Shown in pieces: positions 11,744 to 56,919 of a stretch of DNA of 64,000 bases. Under the pieces are notes generated by a model. It did not search any database. It was not told the DNA's origin and was given only the letters and a program-made list of their open reading frames with translations. The position numbers were made by a program, and so were the translations under genes. Position 1 is the first letter of the stretch. Each line of letters starts with the position of its first letter. Source of the DNA: Lachnospiraceae bacterium (GTDB taxonomy: Bacteria > Bacillota > Clostridia > Lachnospirales > Lachnospiraceae); assembly GCA_015057525.1 (NCBI GenBank), contig SVEE01000001.1, forward strand, positions 1 through 64,000, written 5' to 3'.

Positions 11744-12394
11744 ATGAACGAAAAAGTAATTAACAAATTATCATACGGTCTATTTGTATGTACAGCTAAA
11801 GAGGGTGACAAGGATAATGGTTGTATTATCAATACTGTCATGCAGGTTACAGCTGATCCATTAAGAATAATGGTAGCAATCAACAAACTTAATTACACTC
11901 ATGACATGGTTATGAGAACAAAGAAATGTAATATTTCCATTATTAGTGAAGATGCAAAATTTGATTTATTCAAGCATTTTGGTTTCCAGTCAGGAAAGGA
12001 TGTTAATAAATTTAGTACAACATCAGGTCAGTGGATGGCAGACAATATGAATTTCTGTATAACTACACCTAACGATGTTAAATGCATAACTAAAGGAACT
12101 AACGGACATATTTCTCTATATGTAGAAAACACTTTAGATTTAGAAACGCACACATTATTCATATGTAGAGTTGTAGATGGTGAAGTTCTCTCGGATGTTC
12201 CATCTGCCACATACGATTACTACCACAAACATATAAAAGAGGATATGCAGAAAGTGGGAACAACTCCTGAAGGTGCAACCATATGGAGATGTAAAATCTG
12301 TGGCTTCGAATATGTAGGCGACGAATTACCAGCCGACTATATTTGCCCACTCTGTAAGCATCCGGCGTCAGACTTCGAAAAGGTAGAAAAATAA
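11744..12394 (+). CDS. Flavin reductase-rubredoxin fusion (high-molecular-weight rubredoxin type)
   Basis: 216 aa. Residues about 1-155 form a flavin-reductase-like FMN-binding domain. Residues about 170-216 are a rubredoxin with two Cys-x2-Cys knuckles (CKICGFEY and CPLCKHPA). In acetogens and clostridia such proteins pass electrons from NAD(P)H to flavodiiron proteins for NO or O2 removal. That role here is inference, since no flavodiiron gene is in the window. ATG 11744 follows TAGGAGGTGC. The last codon and stop lie inside the terminal repeat of the large palindrome that follows. Confidence 0.88.
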   Translation: MNEKVINKLSYGLFVCTAKEGDKDNGCIINTVMQVTADPLRIMVAINKLNYTHDMVMRTKKCNISIISEDAKFDLFKHFGFQSGKDVNKFSTTSGQWMADNMNFCITTPNDVKCITKGTNGHISLYVENTLDLETHTLFICRVVDGEVLSDVPSATYDYYHKHIKEDMQKVGTTPEGATIWRCKICGFEYVGDELPADYICPLCKHPASDFEKVEK

Positions 12395-13017
12395 TCATCC
12401 ACTCTGGGGCTTTGGTACTGCAACTAACTGCATATTCTTTGACACCCTACACTTCCCGTTGTATGTAATTGGTTTGTCATATCCTGGTGGAAGATTTTCC
12501 GAAATATCATTATTTTGATTTTCCGATGAAATACACCGCGTGGTATATGTTTGAGGGATTGCCCATAGACTAAGGCATATATTAGTTCTAAATGTTACTC
12601 AAAAAATTTTTGTAATATCTATCATAGTTGGTTTACGATTTTCGATTAAACTTTGCGTTTTGAAACTCGTACTCAGAATAAAGACTCCCCATAAATTTGT
12701 GAAACAATTTATGGGGAGCCTTTTATTCTCAGCACTCAAACACTCAAAACGCAAAGTATTAATCGTAAACCTAACTATGATGATATTACAGAAAAATTTT
12801 TTGAAAATAACATTTTAGAACTAATATATGCCTTAGCCTATGTGGCAATCTCGAGTTCATACCAAAGCGGTGTAAATCAAACATCGGAAAATCAAAATAA
12901 TAGATATTTCAAAAATCTATCCACGGATATACAAACCAATTACATACAACGGGAAGTGTAGGGTGTCATAAGATATCATATACTGCAGTACCAAAGTCCC
13001 AGAGGGATGATTATTTT
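12388..13017. repeat. Giant imperfect palindrome spanning a convergent intergenic region (630 bp)
   Basis: Left arm 12388-12696, right arm 12706-13017, in inverted orientation over their full length. The outermost block AAAATAATCATCC is the same on both sides and contains the last Lys codon and TAA stop of both the rubredoxin gene and upp. Long exact blocks include a 38-bp match (12440-12477 with 12931-12968) and a 23-bp match (12570-12592 with 12814-12836). These are separated by short mismatched or indel stretches. The centre is a bidirectional terminator (12676-12729). No coding frame is convincing inside, and I see no transposase. Confidence 0.95.
12676..12729. terminator. Bidirectional terminator at the centre of palindrome 1
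   Basis: Stem CTCCCCATAAATT / AATTTATGGGGAG with an A-rich left flank (GAATAAA) and a T-rich right flank (TTTTATTC). It could serve both the rubredoxin gene and upp. It sits exactly where the two long arms meet. Confidence 0.8.
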
Positions 13018-13640
13018 GTACCGAAGATTCTGTCGCCGGCATCACCGAGACCTGGGCAAATATAGGCGTCGTCGTTTAATTCACGGTCAAGCTGTCCGAT
13101 GTATATTTCTATGTCAGGGTGTGCTTCAGATAAGGCTTTGAGACCTTCTGGCGCAGCTATTATTGCCATAAATTTGATGTTGGAACCACCTTCGTTTTTG
13201 ATTTTTGAGATGGCATCTATGGCTGAACCACCAGTTGCCAACATAGGGTCAGTAACGATTATAGGGCGGTCTGCAATTGGCTGTGGAAGTTTGCAATAGT
13301 ATTGCTGTGGGAGATGAGTTAACTCATCTCGGTATAAACCTATGTGACCGACTTTAGCTGCTGGAAGAAGGGCAAGTAAGCCACTTACCATACCAAGGCC
13401 TGCTCGGAGTATTGGTATGATGGCAGGTTTTCTTCCTGCAAGAATTGGTGACATGCAAGGTTCAATAGGGGTTTCTATTCTGATATCTTCGAGAGGTAAA
13501 TCTCTAAAAGCTTCATAGCCCATAAGCATAGCCACTTCATCTGTAAGTTTTCTAAATTCGTTGGTGCCTGTGTTCTTGTCTCGTAAAAGAGAAATCTTGT
13601 GCTTGATTAAAGGGTGATCTAGAATGTGTACATTATTCAT
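13011..13640 (-). CDS. upp: Uracil phosphoribosyltransferase
   Basis: 209 aa, the usual length for Upp. It converts uracil plus PRPP to UMP in pyrimidine salvage. The PRPP-binding motif [14 protein letters not shown] and the C-terminal uracil-binding region [17 protein letters not shown] are intact. It is convergent with the rubredoxin fusion gene, and its last codon and stop are part of the giant palindrome. It appears to be monocistronic. Confidence 0.96.
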
Positions 13641-13829
13641 GGCCGCTTACCTTTTATGACAAAGTCATATCCTTTCTTTTGAAAAATATGTAAAGAAATA
13701 CAGACAAAAAAGTCAAAATTCTTTGAATATAGTATAACACAAAAGTGTAGATAAATGATATAGAAATAACCTATATTTTATTTGATATGTTAACGGTGTT
13801 TTTATATAATTAGGAGTAGAAAATGCGAG

Positions 13830-15155
13830 GTGTCAGGAATAGTGATTCAAGGCGAAGATAATATCAAAGAATTAAATATAGATAAAGTAGAGAAACTTGC
13901 TAAAGATTTGATTAAATTGGCACAGGACACTATAACTGTAAGATTTAGATTTTTAGATGTTGCCTTATCAAAGGTAAAATTCATTTCAAAAAATGAATTG
14001 GGAGGATTTTATACAGATGGAGACAACATATACTATGATGCCAAATTTATACTAAAGAAGTATATGGAAGAACCAGGAATAGGGATAAGAGGAATCCTTC
14101 ACATGTTGTTGCATTGTATTTTTATGCATCAGTTTAGATATGATGGATTAGATAGAGAATATTGGGATTTAGCCACAGATATAGCCGTTGAAAATATTAT
14201 ATTGGAATTGGAATTTCAACCTGCTAATTTATCCAACGATTCTGTGAAGAAAAATGAAATAGAAAAAATAAAAAGAAAAGTAAATAATTTAACAGCAGAT
14301 AAAATATATAGAGAATTTATGACTACTCCTTTGGATAATGAGGTTAAAGAAAGGTATGGAAATATTTTCGCTGTAGATATGCATGATTGGTGGGCTAAAG
14401 AGGAAAAATCAGAGCTTATAATAACCGAAGAACAATGGAAAAAAATAAGCAGACGTATCAAATCAGAAATTGATAATTTTTCAAAGGGTAAAGAAATTTC
14501 AGAGAGCTTAAAAAAGAATCTGTCAAAGGCTAATGCTGACAGATATGATTACAGACAAATATTAGAGAGATTTACTGTTTTGGGCGAGGAGATTATCGCA
14601 AGTGAGGATGAGTTTGATTATGTATATTATACATATGGTCTTACTCATTATGGCAATATGCCACTGATAGAACCTTTGGAATATAGGGAAGTAAAGAAGG
14701 TAAAGGAGTTTGTTATAGCTATTGACACTTCTGCATCCTGCAGTGGTGAGTTAATAAATAGATTTATTACAAAAACTTATAATATATTAAAGAGTACAGA
14801 AAACTTTTTCAATAAAATTAATATACATATTATTCAGTGTGATTCCAATATACAAATGGATACAAAAATAAGCAGCGAAGTGGAGTTTCATGATTTTATA
14901 CAAAAAGGTGAAATAAAAGGCTATGGTGCTACCGATTTTCGACCTGTATTTAAACACGTAGAGGAACTTAAAAATAATGGCGAGTTTGAGAATTTAAAAG
15001 GGCTTATTTATTTTACCGATGGATATGGGATTTATCCAGAAAATATTCCGGATTATGATGTTATTTTTGCATTTTTAGACGAGGATGAAGCACAACGAAA
15101 TGTTCCTGGATGGGCTATAAAAATTATAATGGAGGATGAGCTTGATGAATATTAA
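13830..15155 (+). CDS. Putative metallopeptidase / VWA-like protein (DUF2201 type)
   Basis: 441 aa. The N-terminal half looks like the metallopeptidase-like DUF2201 domain (GILHMLLHCIFMHQF, a His-rich helix in place of a canonical HEXXH). The C-terminal part is a VWA-like fold opening FVIAIDTSASCSGEL, a nearly complete MIDAS (D-x-S-x-S). This domain pair is typically encoded next to a MoxR AAA ATPase, as here, and probably acts in assembly or maturation of other proteins; the client is unknown. The start is uncertain: GTG 13830 has a poor ribosome binding site. The good site TAGGAG (13810-13815) serves ATG 13823, which is out of frame and reads only 12 codons. Confidence 0.8.
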   Translation: MSGIVIQGEDNIKELNIDKVEKLAKDLIKLAQDTITVRFRFLDVALSKVKFISKNELGGFYTDGDNIYYDAKFILKKYMEEPGIGIRGILHMLLHCIFMHQFRYDGLDREYWDLATDIAVENIILELEFQPANLSNDSVKKNEIEKIKRKVNNLTADKIYREFMTTPLDNEVKERYGNIFAVDMHDWWAKEEKSELIITEEQWKKISRRIKSEIDNFSKGKEISESLKKNLSKANADRYDYRQILERFTVLGEEIIASEDEFDYVYYTYGLTHYGNMPLIEPLEYREVKKVKEFVIAIDTSASCSGELINRFITKTYNILKSTENFFNKINIHIIQCDSNIQMDTKISSEVEFHDFIQKGEIKGYGATDFRPVFKHVEELKNNGEFENLKGLIYFTDGYGIYPENIPDYDVIFAFLDEDEAQRNVPGWAIKIIMEDELDEY

Positions 15156-16644
15156 CGAGGCTAAAGAATATATTAAAAATTCTATACAGGTATATCTGAA
15201 AAAAGACGAATTTGGAGATTATAGAATTCCTGTAGTGAGACAGAGACCTATATTTTTATTGGGAGCACCAGGTATTGGTAAAACTGCTATTATGGAACAA
15301 ATTGCTCAGGAACTTTCCATAGCTCTTGTTTCGTATTCTATGACTCATCACACAAGACAGTCGGCATTAGGGCTTCCTTTTATCAAACATAAGTCCTATG
15401 AGGGAATGGAGTATGATGTATCTGAATATACCATGAGTGAGATTATTGCATCCATATATGAAATTATGGAAAATAGTGGTGTTAAAGAGGGCATACTATT
15501 TTTGGATGAGATAAATTGTGTGTCTGAAACTTTAGCACCATCCATGCTACAGTTTCTGCAGTACAAGGTATTTGGGAAACACAAGGTTCCAGATGGATGG
15601 GTAATAGTAACTGCAGGAAATCCTCCTGAGTATAACAAATCAGTTAAGGAATTTGATGTTGTAACTATGGATAGGTTAAAGGTGCTTACTGTGGAAGCAG
15701 ACTATCCTACATGGAAAACTTACGCTGTTGAAAGAAATATTCATAGCGCAATAATAAATTTTCTTGAAATAAAAAAGGAATATTTTTATCATATGGAGAC
15801 TACTGCTAAAGGAAGGTCATATGTTACAGCTAGAGGCTGGGAGGACCTTTCTGAAATTATACATATGTACGAGGAGGAAGGACTTTTAGTAGAAGAAAAT
15901 CTTATTTCTCAATATCTTAGAAATGAAAATGTGTCTAAGGAATTTTTTGCATATTACGAATTGTTTAATAAGTACAAAAAGCAATATGAATTAGAAAAAA
16001 TATTAGAGGGAGAAAATACAGAGGATGCCGTTAAAAAAGCCATGGAAGCGGAATTTGACGAAAGAATTTCTCTGCTAGGAATTCTTCTGGATAAGGTTCA
16101 ATCAGAAATAAAAGATGTAATTGAAGAATCGGAATATCTTACAGAACTTAAAACCATATTAATAACTTTAGATACTGAAAATGATCTTATAGATTCTTTA
16201 GATAAGAACATAAACCATAGAAACAAGTTATTGAATAATCTGGGTAAAGCTAACGCACTTTCTGTAACAGATAAGAAAAAGCATAAGAAAATAGTCAGAT
16301 TTTTATGTGAATCAAAAACTTGTATTTTAAATAACAGAGTCCTTGGAGAAGAAGGGTTTAATTATATAAAAGAAAAATATAATCAAAGTGTAATAGATAT
16401 GAAACAGAAAGTTTCTCTTAGTGATAAGCATATTCATAATTTATTTGAATTTACTGACAGAGCATTTAACAATGGTAACGAGATGCTTATACTTGTTACA
16501 GAGCTTACGGCTGGCAAATTTAGCTCTAAGTATATGTCTGTATTTGGTTCGACAGATTATCAAAAATATAGTGAGCTTTTATTGATTGGTGAAAGAAGGA
16601 ATCATATTATGGAAGATATTGATGAAATTTATCCATATTTATAG
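15145..16644 (+). CDS. MoxR-type AAA+ ATPase
   Basis: AAA+ ATPase with Walker A GAPGIGKT and Walker B ILFLDEIN in the first third, then a long charged helical C-terminal region. MoxR ATPases act as chaperones together with VWA proteins. The partner is the gene directly upstream, whose end overlaps by 11 bases. ATG 15145 (MNINEAKEYI) is preferred over ATG 15136, because GGAGG at 15131-15135 is 9 bases from the former and adjacent to the latter. At about 500 aa it is longer than classical MoxR (near 330), the excess being the C-terminal helical part. Confidence 0.85.
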   Translation: MNINEAKEYIKNSIQVYLKKDEFGDYRIPVVRQRPIFLLGAPGIGKTAIMEQIAQELSIALVSYSMTHHTRQSALGLPFIKHKSYEGMEYDVSEYTMSEIIASIYEIMENSGVKEGILFLDEINCVSETLAPSMLQFLQYKVFGKHKVPDGWVIVTAGNPPEYNKSVKEFDVVTMDRLKVLTVEADYPTWKTYAVERNIHSAIINFLEIKKEYFYHMETTAKGRSYVTARGWEDLSEIIHMYEEEGLLVEENLISQYLRNENVSKEFFAYYELFNKYKKQYELEKILEGENTEDAVKKAMEAEFDERISLLGILLDKVQSEIKDVIEESEYLTELKTILITLDTENDLIDSLDKNINHRNKLLNNLGKANALSVTDKKKHKKIVRFLCESKTCILNNRVLGEEGFNYIKEKYNQSVIDMKQKVSLSDKHIHNLFEFTDRAFNNGNEMLILVTELTAGKFSSKYMSVFGSTDYQKYSELLLIGERRNHIMEDIDEIYPYL

Positions 16645-16763
16645 ATGAGTTTACACGCTAATGTGCAAATATATTTATTGTAAAATAAATTAATCAAGGT
16701 TATAATGTAGCAAGTTGCATGAGTAAAACATTAACTATAAATATATAATAAGGAGAAAGAAAA

Positions 16764-18074
16764 ATGGCAGATGAATTAAAAAGAGATAGCGAAGCTACAG
16801 TGCTTATAACTGATGAACCAGTCAAGTTCGACCTTTCATCACAGGGAGCACCAATGGGAATGACACCACAGGGAACACCAGTAGCACCGGGAATGGCACC
16901 ACAGGGAGCGCCAATGCAGGGAATGCCAGTAGCACCGGGAATGGCACCACAGGGAGCACCAATGCAGGGGATGCCTGTAACACCGGGAATGGCACCACAG
17001 GGAGCACCAATGCAGGGGATGCCTGTAACACCAGGAATGCCTCCACAGGGAACACCAATGGGAATGGCACCACAGATGGCACCAGCAAAGCCTGCTAAGC
17101 AGAAGAAACCTAAGAAGGATAAGAAAAAATTATCAGGAGGAGCAATTGCAGGAATAATTATAGGTGTTCTTGTATTACTTGCTGGTATAGGCGTTGGAGT
17201 ATTCTTTATAATCAAGTCTATGTCACCTGATGAAGAGGAGATTAAAGCCGCACTTCCAGAGGAGATAACAAACTATATTCTTGATGGAGAAGAATATGAA
17301 TCAACAGTTGAAAGTGTTGTTATTATTGATAAAAAGTCAAGCAAAGAACTTGAGTGCGAAATCGTATTAGTAGATGATTATTTCGAGAGAACAGTTTACT
17401 GTGAAATGGAATTCGAAAAAGAAGATGGAGAATGGGAAGTAGATTCCTATGAGTATTCTGATGATGCCGAGATGGTTGTTAAGCATGCATATGCTGAAGC
17501 TATATTAGTTGAAAATGGCTATGCAAATGCTACATTTAAAGAGGATTTAACAGAGAAGAAATCTACATACTATCAGTTTGAGTATGATGTTGATGCAGAT
17601 GCTTTGTATGCAACTGTATCAGGAAGTGTTGTAGTGGAAATGTCTTTTGATGAATATTATGATGATGAAGAGAAGACTATTATCTATTCATATTCATACA
17701 TTGATGAGGATAATGTTGAATGTGTATGGAATTTAGCAGGAACGTACATTGAAGATGCAGATGTTGTAACAATGGGTATAACTATCACAGAGGAAGGTGA
17801 TGAGGAGTATACAGTATCGTTCTCATCTTCAGAGTTTGGTACAGCATCAGATGAGGCATATTCATATTTATATTCTGATTCAGCAGAGTTATGTGTATAT
17901 ACAACAAGTACTACACATTCATATATAGATTATTATCTCTATTTCACACCAAACTCATTTGAAGTAGAGGTATATGCATCTGATGATTCATATGATAACA
18001 TTACAATGAAACCTGGTCAGTATAGCCAGCAGGAAGAAGAGTCAGACTTTAACTTCGAAGATTATATAGATTAA
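16764..18074 (+). CDS. Membrane protein with Pro/Met/Gln-rich cytoplasmic repeats
   Basis: 436 aa. Residues about 25-110 are rich in Pro, Gly, Met and Gln, with three near-identical 16-residue units (MAPQGAPMQGMPVTPG type). A Lys-rich stretch follows (about 110-123), then one membrane helix (about 128-150) and an acidic extracytoplasmic C-terminal domain of about 285 residues rich in Tyr, Ser, Glu and Asp. There is no signal peptide. The orientation with the repeats inside follows from the positive charges before the helix. Function is unknown. The layout (disordered head, one helix, extracellular domain) is shared with other proteins in this window, at 6932 and 31602. Confidence 0.75.
   Translation: MADELKRDSEATVLITDEPVKFDLSSQGAPMGMTPQGTPVAPGMAPQGAPMQGMPVAPGMAPQGAPMQGMPVTPGMAPQGAPMQGMPVTPGMPPQGTPMGMAPQMAPAKPAKQKKPKKDKKKLSGGAIAGIIIGVLVLLAGIGVGVFFIIKSMSPDEEEIKAALPEEITNYILDGEEYESTVESVVIIDKKSSKELECEIVLVDDYFERTVYCEMEFEKEDGEWEVDSYEYSDDAEMVVKHAYAEAILVENGYANATFKEDLTEKKSTYYQFEYDVDADALYATVSGSVVVEMSFDEYYDDEEKTIIYSYSYIDEDNVECVWNLAGTYIEDADVVTMGITITEEGDEEYTVSFSSSEFGTASDEAYSYLYSDSAELCVYTTSTTHSYIDYYLYFTPNSFEVEVYASDDSYDNITMKPGQYSQQEEESDFNFEDYID
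16890..17033 (+). repeat. Three tandem 48-bp units inside the Pro-rich gene
   Basis: Units 16890-16937, 16938-16985 and 16986-17033, each starting GGAATGGCACCACAGGGAGC and encoding 16 residues. The last two are nearly identical in DNA, which suggests recent slippage or unequal crossover. Diverged partial units flank them on both sides. Confidence 0.9.
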
Positions 18075-18080
18075 TTCCAA

Positions 18081-18099
18081 AATACAAAATAGTTGTATT
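18081..18099. terminator. Weak hairpin between convergent genes
   Basis: Stem AATACAA / TTGTATT, loop AATAG, in the 34-base gap between the convergent Pro-rich and permease genes. It is AT-rich and short, so terminator strength is doubtful. Confidence 0.4.
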
Positions 18100-18108
18100 G
18101 ATTGTTAT

Positions 18109-23660: not shown

Positions 23661-23664
23661 ATAA

Positions 23665-23702
23665 AAAAAGCTTTGATACATTTTTAGGTATCAAAGCTTT
23701 TT
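23665..23702 (+). terminator. Terminator after the heavy-metal operon
   Basis: Stem AAAAAGCTTTGATAC / GTATCAAAGCTTTTT followed by further T residues. A strong intrinsic terminator. Confidence 0.9.
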
Positions 23703-23710
23703 TTGGTTAG

Positions 23711-26115: not shown

Positions 26116-27621
26116 ATGAGTAAAACAGCTGGTGTTTTAATGCATATATCAAGTTTGCCGTCGGAATATGGAATAGGATGTTTTTCAAAAAGTGCTTATG
26201 CATTTGTTGATTGGCTTAAAGGGGCAGGACAATGCTATTGGCAGATACTTCCTCTTGTTCCTACGAGCTATGGAGATTCTCCATATCAGTCCTTTTCAAC
26301 TTATGCAGGTAATCCTTATTTTATAAGCTTGGAGGAATTAATAAGAGAAGGTGTGTTAACAAAGGAAGAATGTGACCAAGTAGATTTCGGTAAAGATGTT
26401 GAAGATATAGACTATAAAAAATTATATTTAGGTAGATTTCCTCTGCTGAGAAAAGCCTATGAGAGAAGTAATATAAGTCAAAATTCCGAATATATAAAAT
26501 TCATAGAAGAAAATAATTGGTGGCTTAATGATTATGCCATGTTTATGGCAATAAAGGATAAGTTTTACGGAGCACCTTGGACACATTGGCCAGAGGATAT
26601 TAAACTTAGATATGCAAGTGCCATGGATTACTATGGAAGAGAGCTATATTTTGACATAGAATTTTATCAGTATATACAATTTAAGTTCTATGAGCAGTGG
26701 AAGAACTTAAAGGAGTATGCCAACAAAAATGGAGTAAGAATTATTGGAGATATTCCAATATATGTTGCTATGGATAGTGCAGATGTCTGGTCTAGACCAG
26801 AGTTGTTCCAGCTGGATCAAAAAAATGTCCCTATAGCAGTTGCCGGATGTCCCCCAGATGGATTTGCGGCAACAGGGCAGCTGTGGGGAAATCCTCTGTA
26901 CTCATGGGACTATCATAAAGCCACAGGCTATGACTGGTGGATATCAAGAGTAAGGTATTGTTACAAGTTTTATGACGTATTAAGAATAGATCATTTTAGA
27001 GGCTTTGACGAATACTATTCAATACCTTATGGAATGACGACAGCAGTAAACGGACATTGGGAAAAAGGTCCTGGAATAGAGCTGTTCAATGCAATAAAAG
27101 GTGCATTAGGAGACTGTGAAATTATTGCTGAGGACCTTGGTTATGTAACGGATTCGGTAAGAAAACTAGTATCAGACAGTGGTTATCCAAGTATGAAAGT
27201 ACTGGAATTTGCCTTTGATTCCCGTGATACAGGAAGTGCTAAAGATTATCTTCCCCACAATTACAATAATAATTGTGTTGCATATACAGGAACACATGAT
27301 AACGAAACATTGACAGGCTGGTTAAGCACAATATCACCAGATGAAAGAAATGGGGTTAGAGATTATTTGAGTGATAGATATACACCTGGATACGAACTTT
27401 ATTGGCCACTTATAGCAAGCATAATGAAAAGTAACGCCAAACTTTGTATAGTTCCAATACAAGACTACTTGGGCCTGAATAACAAAGCAAGAATGAATAC
27501 TCCATCCACCGTAGGCGAAAACTGGAGATGGCGCATATCCAAGAAAGACTTAAGCTACGACCTAATGCAACGACTTAGAAAAATGGCTAGCCTATATGGA
27601 AGATTGGGTTGGCAGGAGTAG
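26116..27621 (+). CDS. malQ: 4-alpha-glucanotransferase (amylomaltase)
   Basis: 501-aa GH77 enzyme that transfers glucan segments between maltodextrins and releases glucose. Typical motifs: SLPSEYGIG near the start, DSPYQSFSTYAGNPY, VLRIDHFRG (nucleophile Asp), AEDLG (acid/base Glu) and YTGTHDNETL. ATG 26116 follows TTGGAGGTTA. It lies 78 bases downstream of the PTS gene, probably as one unit for maltose or maltodextrin use. Its stop codon TAG forms part of the terminal repeat of palindrome 2. Confidence 0.95.
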   Translation: MSKTAGVLMHISSLPSEYGIGCFSKSAYAFVDWLKGAGQCYWQILPLVPTSYGDSPYQSFSTYAGNPYFISLEELIREGVLTKEECDQVDFGKDVEDIDYKKLYLGRFPLLRKAYERSNISQNSEYIKFIEENNWWLNDYAMFMAIKDKFYGAPWTHWPEDIKLRYASAMDYYGRELYFDIEFYQYIQFKFYEQWKNLKEYANKNGVRIIGDIPIYVAMDSADVWSRPELFQLDQKNVPIAVAGCPPDGFAATGQLWGNPLYSWDYHKATGYDWWISRVRYCYKFYDVLRIDHFRGFDEYYSIPYGMTTAVNGHWEKGPGIELFNAIKGALGDCEIIAEDLGYVTDSVRKLVSDSGYPSMKVLEFAFDSRDTGSAKDYLPHNYNNNCVAYTGTHDNETLTGWLSTISPDERNGVRDYLSDRYTPGYELYWPLIASIMKSNAKLCIVPIQDYLGLNNKARMNTPSTVGENWRWRISKKDLSYDLMQRLRKMASLYGRLGWQE

Positions 27622-27953
27622 GCTTGTCAAAACTTAGAATTTTGGAACACAGTATAAGGATACAGACTTGGTACGGCATGACAATTACAATATAACATAA
27701 GGGCTACACTATAAATATATACAAACATTTAGACTGCGTTTTTAGCGACTGACGAAATCCACCAGTTACGAAGACTTAGGCTCGAAGGCATTCCTGAGAG
27801 ACTTAGTCGGAGTTGCTGGTTAGTTCGGCAGCGCGTTGCAGGTTGTTTGTATAATTTATAGTGTAGCCCTTATGTTATATTGTAATTGTCATGTGTTTAC
27901 AAGTCTGTATTTTTATACTATGTTGTATGTTAACAAGCTTTGACAAGCCTACT
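27617..27953. repeat. Giant imperfect palindrome between malQ and pdxK (337 bp)
   Basis: Left arm 27617-27720 and right arm 27851-27953 are inverted copies. The ends AGTAGGCTTGTCAAA match on both sides; the left one contains the malQ stop codon and the right one stops 4 bases short of the pdxK stop. A 40-bp block is exact (27677-27716 with 27854-27893). Instead of a plain terminator the centre is a 130-bp core (27721-27850) that also occurs at 36714-36843. No coding frame and no transposase are seen. Confidence 0.93.
27721..27850. repeat. Conserved 130-bp core element, copy A
   Basis: Begins ACAAACATTTAGACTGCG and ends GTTGTTTGT, with ACAAAC / GTTTGT as inverted termini. It is about 92% identical to copy B at 36714-36843 (some eight substitutions and two single-base indels). 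The core can itself fold as an interrupted hairpin with a central stem TTAGG / CCTGA. The flanking arms of the two copies differ completely in sequence. Confidence 0.9.
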
Positions 27954-32126: not shown

Positions 32127-32187
32127 AATATAAGCTCTAAGACATATTTTTTTCACGATTATATGTTACATTAAAACATGAAAAATT

Positions 32188-32220
32188 AAGGTTTAATTAT
32201 ATGATATATAATTAAACCTT
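32188..32220. terminator. AT-rich hairpin after the 174-aa gene
   Basis: A 13-bp stem AAGGTTTAATTAT / ATAATTAAACCTT with loop ATGATAT. No clear T-tract follows, so it may be a weak terminator or an RNA-stabilising stem. Confidence 0.4.
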
Positions 32221-32249
32221 ATATTTATTATGGAACTTAGGGGGTATTT

Positions 32250-36672: not shown

Positions 36673-36882
36673 AGGTTTCTGCATAACAAGGCAGTTTTTA
36701 TAAACATATAAAGACAAACATTTGGACTGCGTCCTTAGCGACTTACGAAATCCACCAGCTACGAAGACTTAGGCTCGAAGGCATTCCTGAGAGTCTTAGT
36801 CGTAGTTGTCTGGTTAGTTCGGAAGCGCGTTGCAGTTGTTTGTCATTATATGTTTATAAAACTGTCTTGTTGTACAGAAACC
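36673..36882. repeat. Palindromic element with core copy B (210 bp)
   Basis: Inverted arms 36673-36713 and 36844-36882 (AGGTTTCTG ... AGAAACCT, CAGTTTTTATAAACATATAA with its partner) surround a 130-bp core that matches the centre of palindrome 2. Unlike the other palindromes it lies between two genes of the same direction (feo operon and glmU), downstream of a separate terminator. The element can therefore exist without a convergent pair. Confidence 0.9.
36714..36843. repeat. Conserved 130-bp core element, copy B
   Basis: Begins ACAAACATTTGGACTGCG and ends TTGTTTGT. About 92% identical to copy A at 27721-27850 in the same orientation. Some changes fall where the core pairs with itself, but I could not test covariation with only two copies. 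Confidence 0.9.
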
Positions 36883-37038
36883 TATCCCTACAAAAAATAC
36901 TTCTTGTCTAAATATGAGCATGGGCAGATTTTTTAAGTGGAATACTTTGGAAATATATGTTATAATGTGCGCGACATAATATAGTTTATACATGAAATTA
37001 GTTTGAATTACATTATAAAACGAAAGTTGAGGTCAATT

Positions 37039-41894: not shown

Positions 41895-42962
41895 ATGCTT
41901 TATATTAAGAATAAAATTTCACATAGAATAGCATTTTTTCTAGTGCTTACTTGTATGCTTTCGCTTTTGACTGCATGTGGCAAAGAAAAAAAGCAAAATA
42001 TTGTTTCTCAGGATGGAACTATTGTTTTCCAATATGGAGATAATGTGGTTAGACTTGGAGAGACGTATATCTATGTCAACACAGTTAAAGACAGATATGA
42101 ACTTCAGTATGGAGAAGATATATGGCAGATGACACTTCCAGAGGATGCTGAAACAGGGGAATCTATACTTGCTCTTACCAAGGAAGAGGTTATAACTGAG
42201 ATTGTTAAAGTTAAAACTCTTTGCGCCCATGCTGAAGAATATGGAGTTAAGCTTTCTGATTTAGAGTTGGAGCAGATACAGCTTGATGCTGGCGAATTTT
42301 ATTCCAAGCTAACAGATGAAGATATAGAGGCTATGGAAATTACAGAAGATATTGTATATCAGGTAATGTATGAAAATGCTGTTGCTAAGCTTGTACAGAA
42401 TAAAATTTTAGAGAGCGACCCTATTGAGATATCTGATGAAGAAGCTAGAATGACCACATTCTATGATATGTATTTTGCATGTTATTCTATTAATGAATCT
42501 GGCAATGTGGTTCCTTATACAGAAGAGGAAAAAGAAGTACAATATGAAAATGCTTTGCAAGCTTGTTCTACTCTTGCTACAGCATCAATGGATGAGAACA
42601 AAGAGGCTGAGAATATTGAAAACTTAGCTGCATATTACAAGCTTGAAGAGGGTGGAAATATGACACTTACTCCAGAGGAAATAGTAGACACCTATGGTCA
42701 GGAAATACATGACTTACTTTATTCAATGGAAAATGGTGATTACAGTACAGTTATAGAAAGTGAGTATGGATATCATGTATTCCAGATGATACATCTTACA
42801 GACCCAGAAGCTACTAAAACCCGTAAGGATGTCATGACTAAGGAAGCTATAGACACAAGACTTTCAGACACATTAACACAGTGGAAGAACGAGATAGACC
42901 CTGACTTCAAATATCCAGATTCGGTATATATGGATGTTTACGATACAATTAAAATCCAATAA
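41895..42962 (+). CDS. Parvulin-type peptidyl-prolyl isomerase lipoprotein (PrsA-like)
   Basis: 355 aa with lipobox SLLTAC (Cys near residue 28). The C-terminal third resembles a PpiC/parvulin domain (GDYSTVIESEYGYHVFQMIHL). It probably helps fold exported proteins on the outer face of the membrane, like PrsA. The N-terminal domain is helical, as in SurA/PrsA. It sits 17 bases after mfd, the usual neighbour in Clostridia. Catalytic residues are not all recognisable, so it may be mainly a chaperone. Confidence 0.8.
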   Translation: MLYIKNKISHRIAFFLVLTCMLSLLTACGKEKKQNIVSQDGTIVFQYGDNVVRLGETYIYVNTVKDRYELQYGEDIWQMTLPEDAETGESILALTKEEVITEIVKVKTLCAHAEEYGVKLSDLELEQIQLDAGEFYSKLTDEDIEAMEITEDIVYQVMYENAVAKLVQNKILESDPIEISDEEARMTTFYDMYFACYSINESGNVVPYTEEEKEVQYENALQACSTLATASMDENKEAENIENLAAYYKLEEGGNMTLTPEEIVDTYGQEIHDLLYSMENGDYSTVIESEYGYHVFQMIHLTDPEATKTRKDVMTKEAIDTRLSDTLTQWKNEIDPDFKYPDSVYMDVYDTIKIQ

Positions 42963-42994
42963 AAAAGAATCTCTCGTAAGAGAGATTCTTTTTT
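42961..42994. terminator. Bidirectional terminator between PPIase gene and dut
   Basis: Stem AAGAATCTCTC / GAGAGATTCTT with loop GTAA, A-rich left and T-rich right. An ordinary short terminator in a 35-base convergent gap. Confidence 0.92.
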
Positions 42995-42997
42995 GTT

Positions 42998-47636: not shown

Positions 47637-47650
47637 TCTGTTTGCAATTC

Positions 47651-47734
47651 GCAGTTGTGGCGGAATTGGCATACGCGCATGATTCAGGTTCATGTCCACT
47701 TACGTGGGTGTGGGTTCAAGTCCCATCAACTGCA
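47651..47734 (+). tRNA. tRNA-Leu (anticodon CAG)
   Basis: Acceptor stem GCAGTTG / CAACTGC with discriminator A. The anticodon arm has stem CATGA / TCATG and loop TTCAGGT, giving anticodon CAG. A long variable arm (CCAC / GTGG) marks a class II tRNA, and the T-arm GTGGG-TTCAAGT-CCCAT is normal. The 3' CCA is not encoded. It has its own promoter and a terminator at 47773. Confidence 0.95.
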
Positions 47735-47772
47735 TCAATAATAGATTACCGTTCTATATGGTATAATAAAAA

Positions 47773-47804
47773 GGCTTAAAACATTGTGTTTTGAGCCTTT
47801 TTTT
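47773..47804 (+). terminator. Terminator after tRNA-Leu
   Basis: Stem GGCTTAAAAC / GTTTTGAGCC (one G-T pair), loop ATTGT, followed by T7. Confidence 0.88.
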
Positions 47805-47842
47805 GTTATAATAAGCATATCTGTGTAAATAGGAGGAAACCC

Positions 47843-48859: not shown

Positions 48860-48872
48860 TATGGAGAGTTAG

Positions 48873-50591: not shown

Positions 50592-50601
50592 AGTTGTGAA
50601 T

Positions 50602-50640
50602 AGCTGTCTGATATAAAGTATTGGACAGCTTTTCTTGTTT
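50602..50640 (+). terminator. Terminator after the hydrolase-methyltransferase gene
   Basis: Stem AGCTGTC / GACAGCT followed by TTTCTTGTTT. Confidence 0.7.
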
Positions 50641-50654
50641 AGGGGGATTAAAAA

Positions 50655-51422: not shown

Positions 51423-53427
51423 AATAGTAAAGTGTCTATATAAAAAAGAAATTTTAGATGTACTTAGAGATAAGAAGACGGTATTAATGATGTTAGTTGT
51501 TCCTCTTATTGTATATCCTCTTTTGATTGTTGTAACAATGCAGATTATGGCCTCTGTGTCAACTGGTCTTTCTGAAAGTACATATACTCTTGCTTTTGGA
51601 TTTGATGACAAGTCAGGTGTATATGAAAATATTTTTGAAGAATATCATGACGAAGGATATTATTTTAATGTTGTACATGTTGATAATTTAAACGAAGCTC
51701 TCAAAAATCAAAGCATTGATGCATACATAATTAAAGATGATGAAGCCAAGAAAGAAAGCTTCAAAGTATATTATTTATCAGCTGTCACAAACTCTAATTA
51801 TGCGGCGTCTATGATAAGTAAGGTTCTTTCTGATTATTCAGAAAGCATCACTATTGACATAATTGAGGAAGCAGGTATGTCATCTGATGAGGTGTTGAAT
51901 CCTGTGGAGGCAGAGTTTGTTGATATGTCAAGCAGCGAAGAATCAGCAGGTAACATGCTTGGTAATCTTATATCCTTTATGCTTATTGTGAGTCTTTTAA
52001 TGGGTACTATGTATCCTGCTATAGATACAACAGCTGGTGAAAGAGAAAGAGGAACCTTGGAAACAATTCTTACGTTACCAGTTAGAAATCAAGAACTTAT
52101 AATGAGTAAATTTATGACAGTGGCAACTATAGGTGTTGTATCAGCCTTGCTTAATGTTATATCCATGGGTGGTATTGGTGCATATATGGTTAATATGATG
52201 CAATCCATGGGAACAGGAGAGTCAAATGTAAATATTATTAGTTTTTTACCTGCCATAATAATATGTGTTTTATGTATATTTGCCTTTGCTGTATTTATTA
52301 GTGCAATTACTATGTGTGTATGTGCTTTTGCTAAAACATATAAAGAGGCTAACAATTATATAACACCTCTTATGCTTGTGATTATGTTTGCATCTTTTGT
52401 TGGGTTTATTCCAAATGTAGAATTGAATAGTAACATGGCTTTAGTTCCAGTGGTAAACATATGTCTTTTGGTAAGGGATATACTTGTTTTTAAGTTTAAT
52501 ACAGGGATAATTGCAATTGTATTAATTAGCAATGTGGCTTACGGAATTATAGCAGTAATGCTTTTAGGTAAAATATACAATTCAGAAGCAATTTTATTTG
52601 GTGATAACAGTGCCTCAGTACAGATTTTTGAAAAACGTAGTAATATGAAACAGGGTGGAGTCCCAACTTTGGGAGATGCCTGGTTTGTTGTTGCTCTTGC
52701 TGCAGTGGGTATGATATATGCAGGAGGTATGATGCAACTAAAATTCGGATACTTTGGTATACTTGGAAGCCAACTAATATTCGTCTTTATTCCACTGTTT
52801 ATAGCTATATACACTAAGAAAAATCTTAAGGAAACTTTCAAACTAAGGCTATGCAAACCTAAGTATTTTGCATCTGCATTTGTAATGACAGTTGGTGCTA
52901 TTATGGTTGGTATGGTTTTATCTAGCATAATGAGTGCTATATTTAAAACAAGTGCGCAGGGGGCAGCTGAATCTATGGATGCTCTCATGACAGATAATAT
53001 ATTCAAAATGCTTTTTGTTGTGGCACTTGCACCAGGCATATGCGAAGAATTAATGTTCAGAGGATATCTTCTTTCTGCTACTGAAAATAAATTCAAATCA
53101 CAGCGAGCAATTTTAATTGTAGCAGTAGTGTTTGGTGTATTCCACATGAGCATTGTTAAGTTTTTGACAACTGCATTGCTGGGATATGTATTTGCTTATA
53201 TTGCACATAAATCAAAGAGCATAATTCCAGGAATGACAATGCATTTTATGAACAATGCCTTATCATGTCTTGTGATGGTTTATCCTAAACAAATGGGGGA
53301 AATTATACCTATTTTTGCCGCGGAAACATTAACCGTATTTGATTTTATGGTGTTGTCTGTTTTGGGTGTTATATTAATGTTTTTGGGAAGACAAATTATT
53401 CAAGAAAAGGAAGAAGTTACGCAATAA
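51412..53427 (+). CDS. natB: ABC-2 permease fused to a CPBP intramembrane protease (NatB-like)
   Basis: 671 aa. Residues 1 to about 400 form an ABC-2 permease of NatB type: first helix near 20-45, a large extracytoplasmic loop, then TTAGERERGTLETILTLP and several helices. Residues about 430-660 are a CPBP (CAAX protease-like) membrane domain with EELMFRG (near residue 545), FGVFHMS and HFMNN (near 611), so the EExxxR, HxxxS and HxxN motifs look intact. Such fusions are known in several phyla, but their function is unclear. It may process a peptide that the exporter also handles. Confidence 0.85.
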   Translation: MNYKIVKCLYKKEILDVLRDKKTVLMMLVVPLIVYPLLIVVTMQIMASVSTGLSESTYTLAFGFDDKSGVYENIFEEYHDEGYYFNVVHVDNLNEALKNQSIDAYIIKDDEAKKESFKVYYLSAVTNSNYAASMISKVLSDYSESITIDIIEEAGMSSDEVLNPVEAEFVDMSSSEESAGNMLGNLISFMLIVSLLMGTMYPAIDTTAGERERGTLETILTLPVRNQELIMSKFMTVATIGVVSALLNVISMGGIGAYMVNMMQSMGTGESNVNIISFLPAIIICVLCIFAFAVFISAITMCVCAFAKTYKEANNYITPLMLVIMFASFVGFIPNVELNSNMALVPVVNICLLVRDILVFKFNTGIIAIVLISNVAYGIIAVMLLGKIYNSEAILFGDNSASVQIFEKRSNMKQGGVPTLGDAWFVVALAAVGMIYAGGMMQLKFGYFGILGSQLIFVFIPLFIAIYTKKNLKETFKLRLCKPKYFASAFVMTVGAIMVGMVLSSIMSAIFKTSAQGAAESMDALMTDNIFKMLFVVALAPGICEELMFRGYLLSATENKFKSQRAILIVAVVFGVFHMSIVKFLTTALLGYVFAYIAHKSKSIIPGMTMHFMNNALSCLVMVYPKQMGEIIPIFAAETLTVFDFMVLSVLGVILMFLGRQIIQEKEEVTQ

Positions 53428-53518
53428 ATTAAAATGTAATTACCTTGTTAAGACAGCATAAATGTGTTATTATATTTTGATAAGAATTAATGTTATTACA
53501 TGATGGATAAGGGGTAAA

Positions 53519-54463
53519 ATGAAAAATACTATTATTAAAGGGTTGTTTGTAATTGCTTCATGTATTTTGCTTATAGCTATTGGAGTAATTATTGGAATAA
53601 ATATAAGGACAATATCTCGAGACCCAGCTTTTGTCAGTATAACAGACAAGACGTGGACATTAGGTGAAGGTGAAGAGAAAGCCCGAATAGAGGAGAATTA
53701 TTGGAACTTTATTAGAGCCAGCTATATTTTAATTGGTACGCCACCTGATTGTGAATACTACAAAATTGTCAGTGAAGTAAAGAGACATGATTATGATGTT
53801 GAGAATTTTTATATCGATGACAATAGTGACAAAATGTATTATCACAATGCAGAAGGTGAGCGAGTAAGCACACTGGCTATAGATGTATCTGCGTTCCAAC
53901 CGGAGATAGATTGGACTGCTGTTAAGGCAGCGGGTGTAGATGTTGCCATGATTAGAGTGGGATATAGAGGCTATGGTTCGGGCAAAATTGTTGAAGACGA
54001 TATGTTTAGAACCCACATACAGGGAGCCCTTGATGCAGGTCTTCGAGTAGGTGTGTATTTCTTCAGCCAGGCACTCAACTATGACGAGGGAGTTTCAGAG
54101 GCTAACTTTGTACTTGAAACAATCAGAGAGTTTGATGTTACTTGTCCTGTTGTTATAGATACGGAATTTATGGATGCTTCGGATGCTCGTACAAATGAAC
54201 TTGATATAGATTCTAGAACAGACAGTATTGTGGGCTTTTGTGAGACTGTTGAAGCAGCTGGATATACAGCTATGATATATTCCAATAGAAACTGGTTCGT
54301 GCAGAGTGTGGACATGTCTAGATTAGGCGATTACAAGCTGTGGCTGGCCCATTATACTAATCAACCAGACTTTCCTTACGAATATATAGGATGGCAGTAT
54401 ACAGATCAGGGAACTCTTGATGGTGTTGATGGTTCGGTAGATTTAAACGTTTGGTTTAAATAA
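53519..54463 (+). CDS. Membrane-anchored GH25 lysozyme-family muramidase
   Basis: 314 aa. An N-terminal membrane anchor (about residues 7-28) and about 90 linker residues are followed by a GH25 domain: LAIDVSAFQPEIDW, VAMIRVGYRGYGSG, YFFSQAL, PVVIDTEF (the catalytic D-x-E) and GWQYTDQGTLDGVDGSVDLN. It probably cuts peptidoglycan glycan strands for wall remodelling. Start ATG 53519 follows AAGGGGT. No domain suggests a phage origin. Confidence 0.9.
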   Translation: MKNTIIKGLFVIASCILLIAIGVIIGINIRTISRDPAFVSITDKTWTLGEGEEKARIEENYWNFIRASYILIGTPPDCEYYKIVSEVKRHDYDVENFYIDDNSDKMYYHNAEGERVSTLAIDVSAFQPEIDWTAVKAAGVDVAMIRVGYRGYGSGKIVEDDMFRTHIQGALDAGLRVGVYFFSQALNYDEGVSEANFVLETIREFDVTCPVVIDTEFMDASDARTNELDIDSRTDSIVGFCETVEAAGYTAMIYSNRNWFVQSVDMSRLGDYKLWLAHYTNQPDFPYEYIGWQYTDQGTLDGVDGSVDLNVWFK

Positions 54464-54491
54464 CTAAAGATAAAAAGAAAGGTGTAACAGT

Positions 54492-56411
54492 ATGCGTGTT
54501 AGTGACCTTGCCTTTGATTGTATGGCCCTAGCTATATTAGGACTTATAATCCTATGGTACCTTGTTGACAAAAGAATACCTCTATTGAGCAGAAAAATAT
54601 ACTTTGGAATGGTTCTGACCATATTTACCGCAGGTTTATTGGAAATCATTGCTATGAATATGGTTCGAACTTCTGGGAATCATGAGGATATATTATATAT
54701 TGTGGTACTTAGTGTACAGCAACTGACTGTGAACCTCATTCCTCTTTTGTTTGCCTACTACATTTCTGTTGTAGTAAGTAATGATGCACGTGTAAATAAA
54801 ATGCTTAGTATAGCATGTTTCTTTACTGCTTTTCTTGTGGCTATATTGATATGCCTTAATCCTATGCTTAAGTGGATGTTTGAAAGCACTCCTTCAGGCA
54901 TAGAAAGAGGTGGAGCGGCAGTGGTGTTGATTATAGTAGATTTACTACTGGTATCATACAGCATATTAAGCATGTTTAAAAATAGAAGCAAGGTAGAATT
55001 TAAACATGCAATAATGGTAACCATGAGTATTTGTTTATGTGTGTTGGCTATTATATATCAGCATATAACTAATACGCCAATAGTTTGTTTCTCAATTGCT
55101 TGTGCATGCCTTATGGTATATCACTACCTTAATAATGTTGGAACAATAACAGATGCCACAACACTTTTGTACAACAGAAATTTTATGGGTAGTTATCTTA
55201 ACTATGAGTTTTCTACAGGTAAAAAATTTAACCTAATCGCTGTGGCTATGGATGATTTCAAGTTCATCAACAAGACATATGGTGTTAATACCGGTGATAG
55301 CTTGTTGCAACAGGTGGGTGGCTATCTTAGTGAGTTAAGTGGAGTAGAAGCTGTTTTTAGATTTGGTTCTGACCAGTTTTGTTTATTTCTTCGCAAGAAA
55401 AGTAAGGATATAGATAAAGTTACAGAGGATATACATAATAGATTTTTACATCCATGGTACAGTGAATCATCAGCTGCTATTATGATGTCAGCATCAATAT
55501 GCTGTATAGATTGTCCTAAAGATGCAAAAACATATGAGGGTCTCATAGAAGTAATAGATTACTCCATGACTATCGCCAAAAAGACCAGAAAGGGTGGCGT
55601 TGTAAGATCTTCTGAACTTGATGTAGATAATCTTATAAATGATAAAGCCATTGAAAAGGCAGTTAAACTTGCCATGGACAGAGATGAACTCATGGTACAC
55701 TACCAGCCAATTTACTCTGTAGAAAAACAGAAATATAATTCTGCAGAAGCACTCGTACGATTAAAAGATGAGGAATTAGGATGGATTTCACCAGAAAAAT
55801 TCATACCTATTGCTGAGAAAAATGGACTCATTATGGAAATGGGTGACATGATATTAAAGAAGGTCTGCAAGTTTATTCGTGATTATTCAATAGCAGATAC
55901 AGATATAGAGTACATAGAAATCAACATAAGTCCAGTCCAACTTACTCAGTTAGATTTTGCTACAAGAGTCATAAAAATACTTGAAAACTATGGCGTTAAA
56001 CCTGAACAAATTAACTTCGAAATAACAGAGACTGCATCTCTTGGTACTATGGCAGTTCTCAATGACAATATTGGTAGATTGGTAGACTATGGCATATCAT
56101 TCTCTCTTGATGATTACGGCTCAGGTCATTCCAACATTGATTATATCAATCACATGCCATTTAAAATTATCAAAATCGACAAATGTATCATATGGGATGC
56201 CTTCAAGAACGAAAAGGCTGGCATAACACTTGAATACACGATCGGAATGCTTAATGCCCTTAAACTTCTCATAGTAGCAGAAGGCGTAGAAACAGAAGAA
56301 ATGCGAGACAAACTCGAAAATATAGGATGCCACTATATGCAAGGCTGGTACTACTCCAAAGCGGTACCAGACACCGAATTTATGGAGCTCATCTCTAGCA
56401 CTCCACAATAA
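54492..56411 (+). CDS. Membrane GGDEF-EAL protein, likely c-di-GMP phosphodiesterase
   Basis: 639 aa. Seven or so N-terminal membrane helices (to about residue 215) form a sensory module. A GGDEF domain with degenerate site FGSDQF follows, then an EAL domain with AEALVRL, EINISPVQ, FEITETAS, DDYGSGHSN, IKIDKCII and EGVET. Cyclase activity is unlikely and phosphodiesterase activity likely. Its CAA-TAA end lies in the terminal repeat of palindrome 3. Confidence 0.88.
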   Translation: MRVSDLAFDCMALAILGLIILWYLVDKRIPLLSRKIYFGMVLTIFTAGLLEIIAMNMVRTSGNHEDILYIVVLSVQQLTVNLIPLLFAYYISVVVSNDARVNKMLSIACFFTAFLVAILICLNPMLKWMFESTPSGIERGGAAVVLIIVDLLLVSYSILSMFKNRSKVEFKHAIMVTMSICLCVLAIIYQHITNTPIVCFSIACACLMVYHYLNNVGTITDATTLLYNRNFMGSYLNYEFSTGKKFNLIAVAMDDFKFINKTYGVNTGDSLLQQVGGYLSELSGVEAVFRFGSDQFCLFLRKKSKDIDKVTEDIHNRFLHPWYSESSAAIMMSASICCIDCPKDAKTYEGLIEVIDYSMTIAKKTRKGGVVRSSELDVDNLINDKAIEKAVKLAMDRDELMVHYQPIYSVEKQKYNSAEALVRLKDEELGWISPEKFIPIAEKNGLIMEMGDMILKKVCKFIRDYSIADTDIEYIEINISPVQLTQLDFATRVIKILENYGVKPEQINFEITETASLGTMAVLNDNIGRLVDYGISFSLDDYGSGHSNIDYINHMPFKIIKIDKCIIWDAFKNEKAGITLEYTIGMLNALKLLIVAEGVETEEMRDKLENIGCHYMQGWYYSKAVPDTEFMELISSTPQ

Positions 56412-56919
56412 TTCCGGCACCTACTCACAAATTAGAAGCAACCTGCACAACCACACAAAACCCGCGTTTAAGATAACCTTTGGCTAAACTTACAAATAGG
56501 ATATACCAATAAAAATGATGCTAGAAAACTGTCAGAAAACGCCGGCACTTAGCTTGTGGGAATGCATATCAGAATAATAAATGTGCTTTGAAACACGCTT
56601 TCGCTTGGACGGAAACGCAACAGTACGTAAGTGTGAAAAGAACAGCCACGGATTAACAATTAAATTGTAATCCGTGGCTGTTCTTTTCGCACTAAGTGCT
56701 GGCGTTTCCTGACAGTTTCCCAGCGCCATTTTTATTCTGATATGCATTCCCACAAGCTTACGTACCGCTGCGTTTTCGTCCAAGCGAAAGCGTGTTTTCA
56801 AGCACATTTATTATTGGTATATCCTATTGTAAGTTTATTCGCAAAGATAAATGTTTTGCGAGTTTTGTGTGGTTGTGCAGTTGCTTTTTGATAAGTGGGC
56901 GAGTAGGTGCCGGAATTAT
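56408..56919. repeat. Giant imperfect palindrome between GGDEF-EAL gene and porB (512 bp)
   Basis: The ends match exactly for 19 bp (56408-56426 with 56901-56919), and this block holds the TAA stop codon of both convergent genes (ATAATTCCGGCACC). The middle is a long bidirectional terminator (56631-56692). Between these, both arms contain the same blocks X, Y and Z, but in different order: X-Y-Z on the left (56511-56552, 56553-56576, 56577-56631) and Z-Y-X when the right arm is read inward (Z 56811-56757, Y 56756-56733, X 56732-56693). Y is identical in both arms (24 bp). Confidence 0.95.
56631..56692. terminator. Bidirectional terminator at the centre of palindrome 3
   Basis: A 25-bp stem with one mismatch (GTGTGAAAAGAACAGCCACG ... 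with its partner ending TTCTTTTCGCAC), A-rich on the left and T-rich on the right. It would terminate transcription from both sides. Confidence 0.88.

Follow-up and report, generated by a model that had tools for sequence, protein, structure and literature searches.

Giant palindromes in gene gaps of a Lachnospiraceae genome as candidate MITE-like mobile hairpin elements

Introduction

Hairpin-forming DNA between bacterial genes has been described in several forms. The pneumococcal BOX, RUP and SPRITE elements are bacterial miniature inverted-repeat transposable elements (MITEs), of which the SPRITEs are terminator-like, and it was reported that such elements insert into one another (PMC10969869). 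Repetitive extragenic palindromic sequences (REPs) measure 20-40 bp (PMC3733652), and REP palindromes and bacterial interspersed mosaic elements (BIMEs), which often lie between convergent genes, act as targets of insertion sequences (PMC1525189). Compensatory evolution of terminators has been reported in Bacillus cereus (PMC5381666), and in genes of nematomorphs very long inverted repeats are kept in coding sequence (PMC6649704). The present work deals with giant palindromes in a window of DNA, that is, the whole analysed stretch of 64,000 nucleotides (positions 1 to 64,000 of contig SVEE01000001.1, assembly GCA_015057525.1) from a Lachnospiraceae bacterium. Its genome is called G000; other G numbers denote compared genomes, and C and L numbers denote contigs and loci.

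In a preliminary description of the window, several roles had been considered for these palindromes, the last of them being that of terminator-targeting mobile elements. This option is now favoured by cores that are repeated through the genome and by presence and absence between species. The giant palindromes are interpreted, with a probability of about 0.58, as families of non-autonomous, MITE-like mobile hairpin elements of about 200-735 bp, which would insert into loops and whose arms would be rematched. The elements probably landed in gaps at gene ends, and in one case or more within a short terminator hairpin. For the three gaps described first, an element that is dispersed, mobile and palindromic is a better explanation than a function tied to convergent genes.

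Palindromes of the window

12334..13068, no strand: P1, a 735-bp palindrome between a flavin reductase-rubredoxin gene (+) and upp (-); self-comparison and Pfam
27617..27953, no strand: P2, a 337-bp palindrome between malQ (+) and a PfkB/Phos_pyr_kin kinase gene (-); self-comparison and Pfam
56408..56919, no strand: P3, a 512-bp palindrome between a GGDEF-EAL gene (+) and porB (-); self-comparison and Pfam
36673..36883, no strand: a fourth palindrome, in a co-directional gap; self-comparison
42958..42997, no strand: an ordinary bidirectional terminator-like hairpin of 40 bp, filling a 35-base convergent gap with margins of -5 and +1

Self-comparison showed P1 (78.5%, 508 bits), P2 (73.6%, 188 bits) and P3 (74.2%, 272 bits) to be full-length inverted repeats, which bears out the earlier statement that three convergent gaps are near-complete stop-to-stop inverted repeats. 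The stop codons were likewise found at the palindrome ends, as had been stated, at 12392-12394 (flavin reductase-rubredoxin) and 13011-13013 (upp) in P1 and at 56409-56411 (GGDEF-EAL) and 56916-56918 (porB) in P3, the margins between palindrome end and stop being -61/-58, -5/+4 and -4/-4 bases for P1, P2 and P3. The predicted fold of P2 has an energy of -175.7 kcal/mol (z -19.5 against 100 shuffles). Three short convergent gaps, described as having ordinary hairpins only, indeed have ordinary ones or none (raw scores 18, 43 and 60), and the hairpin at 42958..42997 may serve as a model of an unfilled site.

The fourth palindrome (73%, 104 bits) is crossed by an open frame without a Pfam match. 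It has the same centre as P2, and so not all palindromes of the window are unrelated; the genome repeats their centres and not their arms. The tRNA family gave the only match above the gathering score in an Rfam search of the window, and P2 and P3 had matches below gathering scores only. An assignment of P3 to a miRNA-like Rfam family was rejected, since all such matches fell below these scores and lay on its perfect central hairpin. Smaller intergenic palindromes at 32177-32232 and 23663-23704 (84-86%) are of ordinary terminator size.

Family A: one core in many arms

27719..27850, + strand: family A core, a 132-bp structured hairpin at the centre of P2; DNA search and covariation
36712..36843, + strand: family A core in the fourth palindrome, 90-92% identical to the P2 core (92% over 131 positions)

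The family A core is present in 28 copies in this genome, the P2 copy included, at 84-100% identity. Close DNA copies were found in none of 60 relatives, so that one of 61 genomes, its own, is positive; the exact 21-base core pattern was absent from viral contigs, and the core from plasmids. Within the core, 53 cells with changes on both sides were counted in 39 pairs, against a shuffle mean of 12.2 and maximum of 23 (1000 shuffles), and broken pairing was counted 12 times against 67.5 in shuffles; this is a strong signal and not a probability, as the structure was predicted on the same alignment and related copies inflate such shuffles. Departures from pairing were G-T in 13 cases and A-C in 2 (shuffle means 40.6 and 30.7). 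Hence, one strand of the core seems to matter, either as RNA or as single-stranded DNA.

Both this bias and the covariation fit functional 3' untranslated region (UTR) or read-through RNAs, the hairpins being selected as RNase III substrates, protectors of 3' ends or reciprocal regulators of convergent genes. The core runs in gene orientation in 9 of 14 co-directional gaps, the mismatches of the A arms were G-T in 65 and A-C in 41 cases in one alignment, and a palindrome of the P3 type (family B, below) follows porB in both G000 and G011. However, an intermediate of single-stranded DNA would leave the core biased in the same way. The bias of the arms is weaker than that of the core, and in a second alignment it was weak (89 to 64, p 0.052); it is absent from the outer arms of another family, D. 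In addition, A copies also lie in 6 divergent gaps, close DNA copies of A and D are limited to one or two species, and palindromes are missing in other species with the same gene pairs. Selection as functional RNA is thus rated as quite unlikely. The reciprocal 3' UTR control and collision buffer proposed in the preliminary description are not needed, because the porB gap with the same neighbour works without such a palindrome elsewhere; the same cores also occur in co-directional and divergent gaps.

Outside the core, the left arm of an A copy pairs with its own right arm, the within-copy score exceeding the top between-copy score (32) in 25 of the 28 copies, and scores between copies are like those of shuffles (mean 17.2 versus 17.5, maximum 32 versus 31). 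Pairing reaches 87-92% in the inner 45 bases and 70-83% further out. Among motifs chosen post hoc, GTATGG occurs in 6 of 28 A arms (0.8 expected, maximum 3 in 200 shuffles), a looser form of it in 10 arms, in 8 of them 20-31 bases from the core, and ATATAA in 18 arms. It is possible, if doubtful, that the palindromes are mobile hairpins that recognise structure and not sequence, in which a strand-specific core would land in any hairpin loop. A stem of 40-160 bases would then be made anew or exchanged at every site instead of being passed on base by base, and nearly identical cores would come to carry stems that are unrelated to one another and yet complementary to themselves. Two inverted A copies about 240 bases apart in one convergent gap make up another palindrome, of 505 bp (L151:795-1301; G000 C20:38594-39100).

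Family B and nested layers

56508..56815, + strand: family B core, 308 bp, centre of P3, with 7 copies in the genome; DNA search
56573..56631, + strand: module X, inner layer, inverted partner at 56757-56815 (91.5% over 59); self-comparison
56757..56815, - strand: module X, outer layer, inverted partner at 56573-56631; self-comparison
56508..56552, + strand: module Y, outer layer, inverted partner at 56692-56736 (86.7% over 45); self-comparison
56692..56736, - strand: module Y, inner layer, inverted partner at 56508-56552; self-comparison
56636..56687, no strand: central hairpin of P3 with an A-tract and a T-tract flanking both sides, seen by eye and missed by the simple terminator scan

All seven B copies have paired arms, and between copies only one of 21 arm pairs exceeded the shuffle maximum (29), because both copies of that pair hold a second nested B layer. 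Nested X/Y layers were observed in P3, at C11:18472 and at C8:33861; P3 also contains a 91-codon open frame. On searching 61 genomes with the B core, short matches only were obtained, in G019, G036, G029 and G008, and none in G011; no B core was found in phages. The B-type palindrome of G011 was therefore missed, which means that DNA searches overlook diverged members and that confinement to one species refers to close DNA copies only.

The nested layers speak for core replacement, according to which the cores of A and B move exclusively into older palindromic elements, whose centres they replace, and the arms are the decayed remains of these. This would account for two A copies that carry unrelated arms around cores 99.2% identical, and the GTATGG motif hints at a remote kinship of A arms. 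On the other hand, long palindromes without a known core are few (2 of 20 unassigned), and this rarity sets back the idea that the elements target pre-existing giant palindromes. Inner arms with 87-92% of bases paired can, moreover, hardly be old without a homogenising process. Core replacement is hence judged unlikely.

Family D and the fabZ gap

Presence and absence could be followed in the gap between fabZ (FabA-like) and a HAD_2 gene (Pfam). Around a kinase gene, G015 and G001 share 92.7-96.0% identity; at the fabZ gap, G015 carries a 540-bp palindrome of family D, and G001 has a short bare gap. The corresponding gap of G000, whose fabZ is 77.5% identical, is occupied by an A palindrome, so that three species show three states (bare, D and A). 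Six other full D copies match the G015 fabZ copy from end to end at 85-92%, and hence the arms belong to the D element. Family D, 533 bp long, was found by DNA search in 2 of 41 genomes, with 86 and 64 matching pieces (both strands counted).

These data bear on the notion that the palindromes grew in place: a small hairpin inserts and template switching copies the flank outward until coding sequence is reached. Arms derived from the locus would explain both the differences between copies and the ends at stop codons. In agreement with this, A arms are unrelated between copies and better paired in their inner 45 bases than further out, in 6 of the 9 convergent palindromes from a genome sample the two ends lie at the stops (margins -61 to +4), and P1 reaches into both coding ends. 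Nevertheless, the whole 540 bp, arms too, is absent from the unfilled fabZ site, and the D copies are alike end to end. Furthermore, the A arm at G000 fabZ matched the bare G001 gap no better than shuffles did (score 17; 19 of 200 as high), in a comparison of distant species. The filled and unfilled pair thus sets back the copying of arms from the flank, and growth in place is regarded as improbable, to about the same degree as core replacement.

At another, orthologous locus, a D element that is whole in G015 has lost its interior by deletion in G001, where the outer parts alone are left (L260:1494-1656 versus L241:1494-2034). Relics resembling ordinary terminators were seen at L267:6950-7055 and L269:2680-2728. 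Many G015 and G001 contigs end in D palindromes (e.g. G015 C56:1-256 and C43:1-216), and the draft assemblies therefore seem to be broken by the elements and full copies undercounted.

The porB gap and insertion into terminator loops

In each of the 30 genomes compared, G000 among them (35 had a match), residue 310 is the last of the porB product, and the porB stop is therefore native. With the same HAD-type convergent neighbour, the porB gap measures 26 bases in G015, 26 in G029 and 50 in G022, with plain hairpins, and 335 bases in G011, where it holds a B-type palindrome. The C-terminal identity of the neighbour to that of G011 is 135-138/160 in the former three; at 113-123/160, gaps of 71 (G021), 73 (G002) and 122 bases (G007) were found. 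Like P3, the G011 element is built as a double layer of alternating X and Y; the two have a 16-base X piece in common and differ in their arms. By eye, the outer arm of the G011 element (AAAGACTGCCACGCA; about 15 bases) resembles the terminator stem of G022 (AAAGGCTGCCGCACGCA), and on the right the sequences outside the palindrome agree. The P3-type palindrome of G011 seems, then, to sit inside a terminator stem. The B palindrome after porB in G000 adjoins another neighbour. In G002, downstream of porB (L298), a near-perfect palindrome of 66 bp (94%) fills the 73-base convergent gap stop to stop.

The geometry of the G000 sample is in line with such a position. Convergent gaps of 35-67 bases number 14; a self-complementary hairpin with a raw score of at least 40 was found in 12, and in 10 of these it lies at most 20 bases from both stops. 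In convergent giant palindromes the two stop margins differ by at most 42 bases in 9 of 9 cases and by at most 9 in 8 of 9; in the nine co-directional ones they differ by 20-465. Insertion into the loop of a hairpin lying near both stops would give a stop-to-stop giant palindrome without further assumptions.

P1 and family C

12685..12718, + strand: central terminator-like hairpin of P1, 13 pairs, tail CCTTTTATTC; terminator scan
12492..12928, no strand: part of P1 with both ends matching repeats of G010 and G033 (family C); DNA search

P1 overlaps the coding ends of both its genes. The residues YICP are encoded near the ends of both by an identical 12 bases (12334-12394 and 13011-13068), and the palindrome therefore extends into coding sequence. 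Both C-termini look native: 14 of 16 translated relatives, drawn from 53 loci, end in FEKV or FEKI plus two residues and the other two in FELVE, and the closest named flavin reductases are from Lachnospiraceae (up to 63% identity). The upp product ends in GDRIFGTK, the canonical C-terminus.

No second copy of P1 was found in this genome at E up to 0.001. Parts of it match repeats of relatives, 11 in G010, 9 in G033 and one each in G005, G017 and G051. In this family C, 12 of 21 distinct loci have a palindrome of 480-712 bp, and several others lie at contig ends; the middles are common and the outer 80-100 bases mostly differ between loci.

A scan of P1 gave two terminator-like sites on the + strand and none on the - strand (shuffle mean 0.5). 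A bidirectional intrinsic terminator would be expected to have a G+C-rich stem and a run of T on both strands; terminator-like features are found at the centre of P1 on the + strand only, at that of P3 by eye only, and not in P2. The terminator-like centres of P1 and P3 might suggest plain bidirectional terminators enlarged by chance and selection without mobility; this is contradicted by the repeated cores in all gap types and by presence and absence between species, and it is considered very improbable.

Evolution of the arms

It had been suggested in the preliminary description that the arms be compared for preserved pairing, and pairing was found to be kept despite divergence in family D and at one orthologous locus. 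Pairwise divergence among seven full D copies, other copies being partial or at contig ends, is 0.175-0.176 at the ends, 0-0.057 in columns 201-360 and 0.02-0.11 between. Changes on both sides of a pair numbered 24 cells against 9.4 in shuffles (none of 1000 reached 24), and in the outer 31 pairs 11 against 4.3 (none of 1000 reached 11). The outer D arms have no strand bias (G-T 8, A-C 8), a result slightly easier to reconcile with a process at the level of DNA than with selection on RNA. In the D core, the departures (G-T 10, A-C 0) show no bias beyond that of shuffles (10.9 and 0.9). The locus is the porB gap of G013 and G003, whose palindromes are 75% identical: of 74 pairs, selected by RNAalifold, which favours paired change, 63 are identical and the other 11 differ on both sides, one-sided changes being absent. 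G013 and G019 show few differences there. Kept pairing speaks against plain decay and fits selection and template switching alike. Template switching creates and repairs hairpins and keeps stems perfect, and is a known route to multi-base paired changes (PMC8794818).

Distribution between genes and genomes

Gene contexts were taken from open reading frames (ORFs) of at least 70 amino acids for the copies and at least 90 for the pair sample, and not from gene calls. One A copy on C13, that of the fabZ-HAD gap, first classed as convergent through an 87-codon frame without a Pfam match, lies between two + genes and was reassigned; further errors of this kind are possible in the ORF-based counts. 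A copies then number 8 in convergent, 14 in co-directional and 6 in divergent gaps (9, 13 and 6 before), and B copies 4, 3 and 0. The 526 adjacent ORF pairs of the sample comprise 47 convergent, 432 co-directional and 47 divergent ones. Convergent gaps are thus enriched (12 of 35 A and B copies versus 47 of 526 pairs), and this much of their supposed specialty stands; it is not exclusive, as 23 of the 35 copies lie elsewhere (17 co-directional, 6 divergent). In sample gaps of at least 200 bases, which are partly long through the insert itself, a palindrome was present in 9 of 12 convergent, 9 of 63 co-directional and 0 of 22 divergent cases, six of the sampled stretches having been picked for known copies.

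In 663,287 bp of the genome, 20 palindromes reached the thresholds of 150 bp and 60 bits, 10 with the P2 core, 7 with the P3 core, 1 being P1 and 2 unassigned, a density biased upward by the same choice of stretches. Long palindromes outside families A, B and C were noted at G000 C2:360-765 and C15:74487-74824 (68-70%). With a cut of at least 80 bits and 110 bp, one palindrome was found in 906,406 bases from 53 loci of other genomes, most of them Lachnospiraceae, and two in 104,339 bases from 29 loci of relatives. Five congeners (382,762 bases) gave two, one of them already among the finds at other loci, and 100 kb each of G006 and G013 gave none. Because congener sequence held so few, a high density of palindromes is not general in the genus.

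Proposed course of events

On the interpretation as MITE-like mobile hairpins, an element would insert itself into the loop of a hairpin that is already there, chiefly that of a terminator filling a short convergent gap, as one fairly clear case and the geometry suggest, and a stop-to-stop terminator would thereby be turned into a stop-to-stop giant palindrome. Elements would also nest in one another, as the double X/Y layers of P3 indicate. Template switching at the hairpin during replication, with or without selection on structure, may copy one arm onto the other, so that the arms, their outer ends above all, would change faster than the core. The host would mostly tolerate elements that stay between genes, and some relics look like working terminators.

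Several observations weigh against this interpretation. Insertion into a terminator loop is fairly clear at one site only, and the B palindromes of G000 and G011 may be one shared ancestral insertion with loss elsewhere. Strong hairpins are lacking in the eight convergent gaps of less than 35 bases (raw scores 8-24), no terminator-like site was found within P2 by the scan, the A arms are A+T-rich, unlike terminator stems, and most A and B copies lie outside convergent gaps. At the one site inspected no target duplication is visible, and some 10-15 bases are replaced. The only inverted repeat at the fabZ site is one of 6 bases, and the difference between species there may instead stem from a loss accompanied by base replacement. 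The A copies with 99.2% identical cores cannot be explained by fast arm change alone, and so arm renewal or core exchange is needed. Lastly, no Y1 transposase (Y1_Tnp), the only enzyme family searched, was found in six genomes of the genus.

Significance

If the interpretation is true, a genus of Clostridia related to Lachnospiraceae harbours hairpin elements that change rapidly and settle at the ends of genes, where an insertion comes at little cost. The series across species from bare terminator to nested giant palindrome would then show how long stems arise and stay perfect, which is an old question in the evolution of RNA and DNA, and would allow template switching to be tested in nature. 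It also carries a warning: a regulatory RNA should not be assumed from long perfect stems and covariation in a 3' region. The interest of the palindromes would lie in their mobility and in what they teach about the matching of stems, rather than in any control of these genes.

Comparison with known systems

Integron attC sites and the ends of IS200/IS605 elements are recognised as folded single strands, and their structure is conserved more than their sequence. The likeness to the palindromes is one of principle only; for IS200/IS605 a difference is that Y1 enzymes were not found in the six genomes.

REP and BIME palindromes are alike in often lying between convergent genes as insertion targets; they are mobilised by REP-associated tyrosine transposases (RAYTs), whereas the present palindromes far exceed 20-40 bp and no Y1 (RAYT-type) transposase was found in the six genomes. 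Bidirectional intrinsic terminators share the hairpin near both stops of short convergent gaps and the compensatory change, but the elements described here are about ten times longer and carry a repeated core. Template-switch hairpins and nematomorph palindromes involve no mobile element family as far as described, and the mechanism proposed here is inferred.

The closest likeness is to bacterial MITEs such as BOX, RUP and SPRITE, which are also short, dispersed, hairpin-forming and multi-copy (here 28 A and 7 B copies), possess terminal inverted repeats, where here the whole element is an imperfect inverted repeat, and show presence and absence at orthologous sites, as was found here. A difference is that each element here is palindromic over its full length of up to 735 bp, and that the arms of A and B are unrelated between copies around conserved cores; no target duplication (one site) and no autonomous partner (Y1_Tnp search only) were seen. 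In a literature search, with subscription journals mostly outside its scope, no description of this pattern was recognised. What seems new is the combination of giant size, position in terminator loops, nesting, and arms that are paired within a copy and different between copies, and the elements are best filed as a variant of MITE-like elements.

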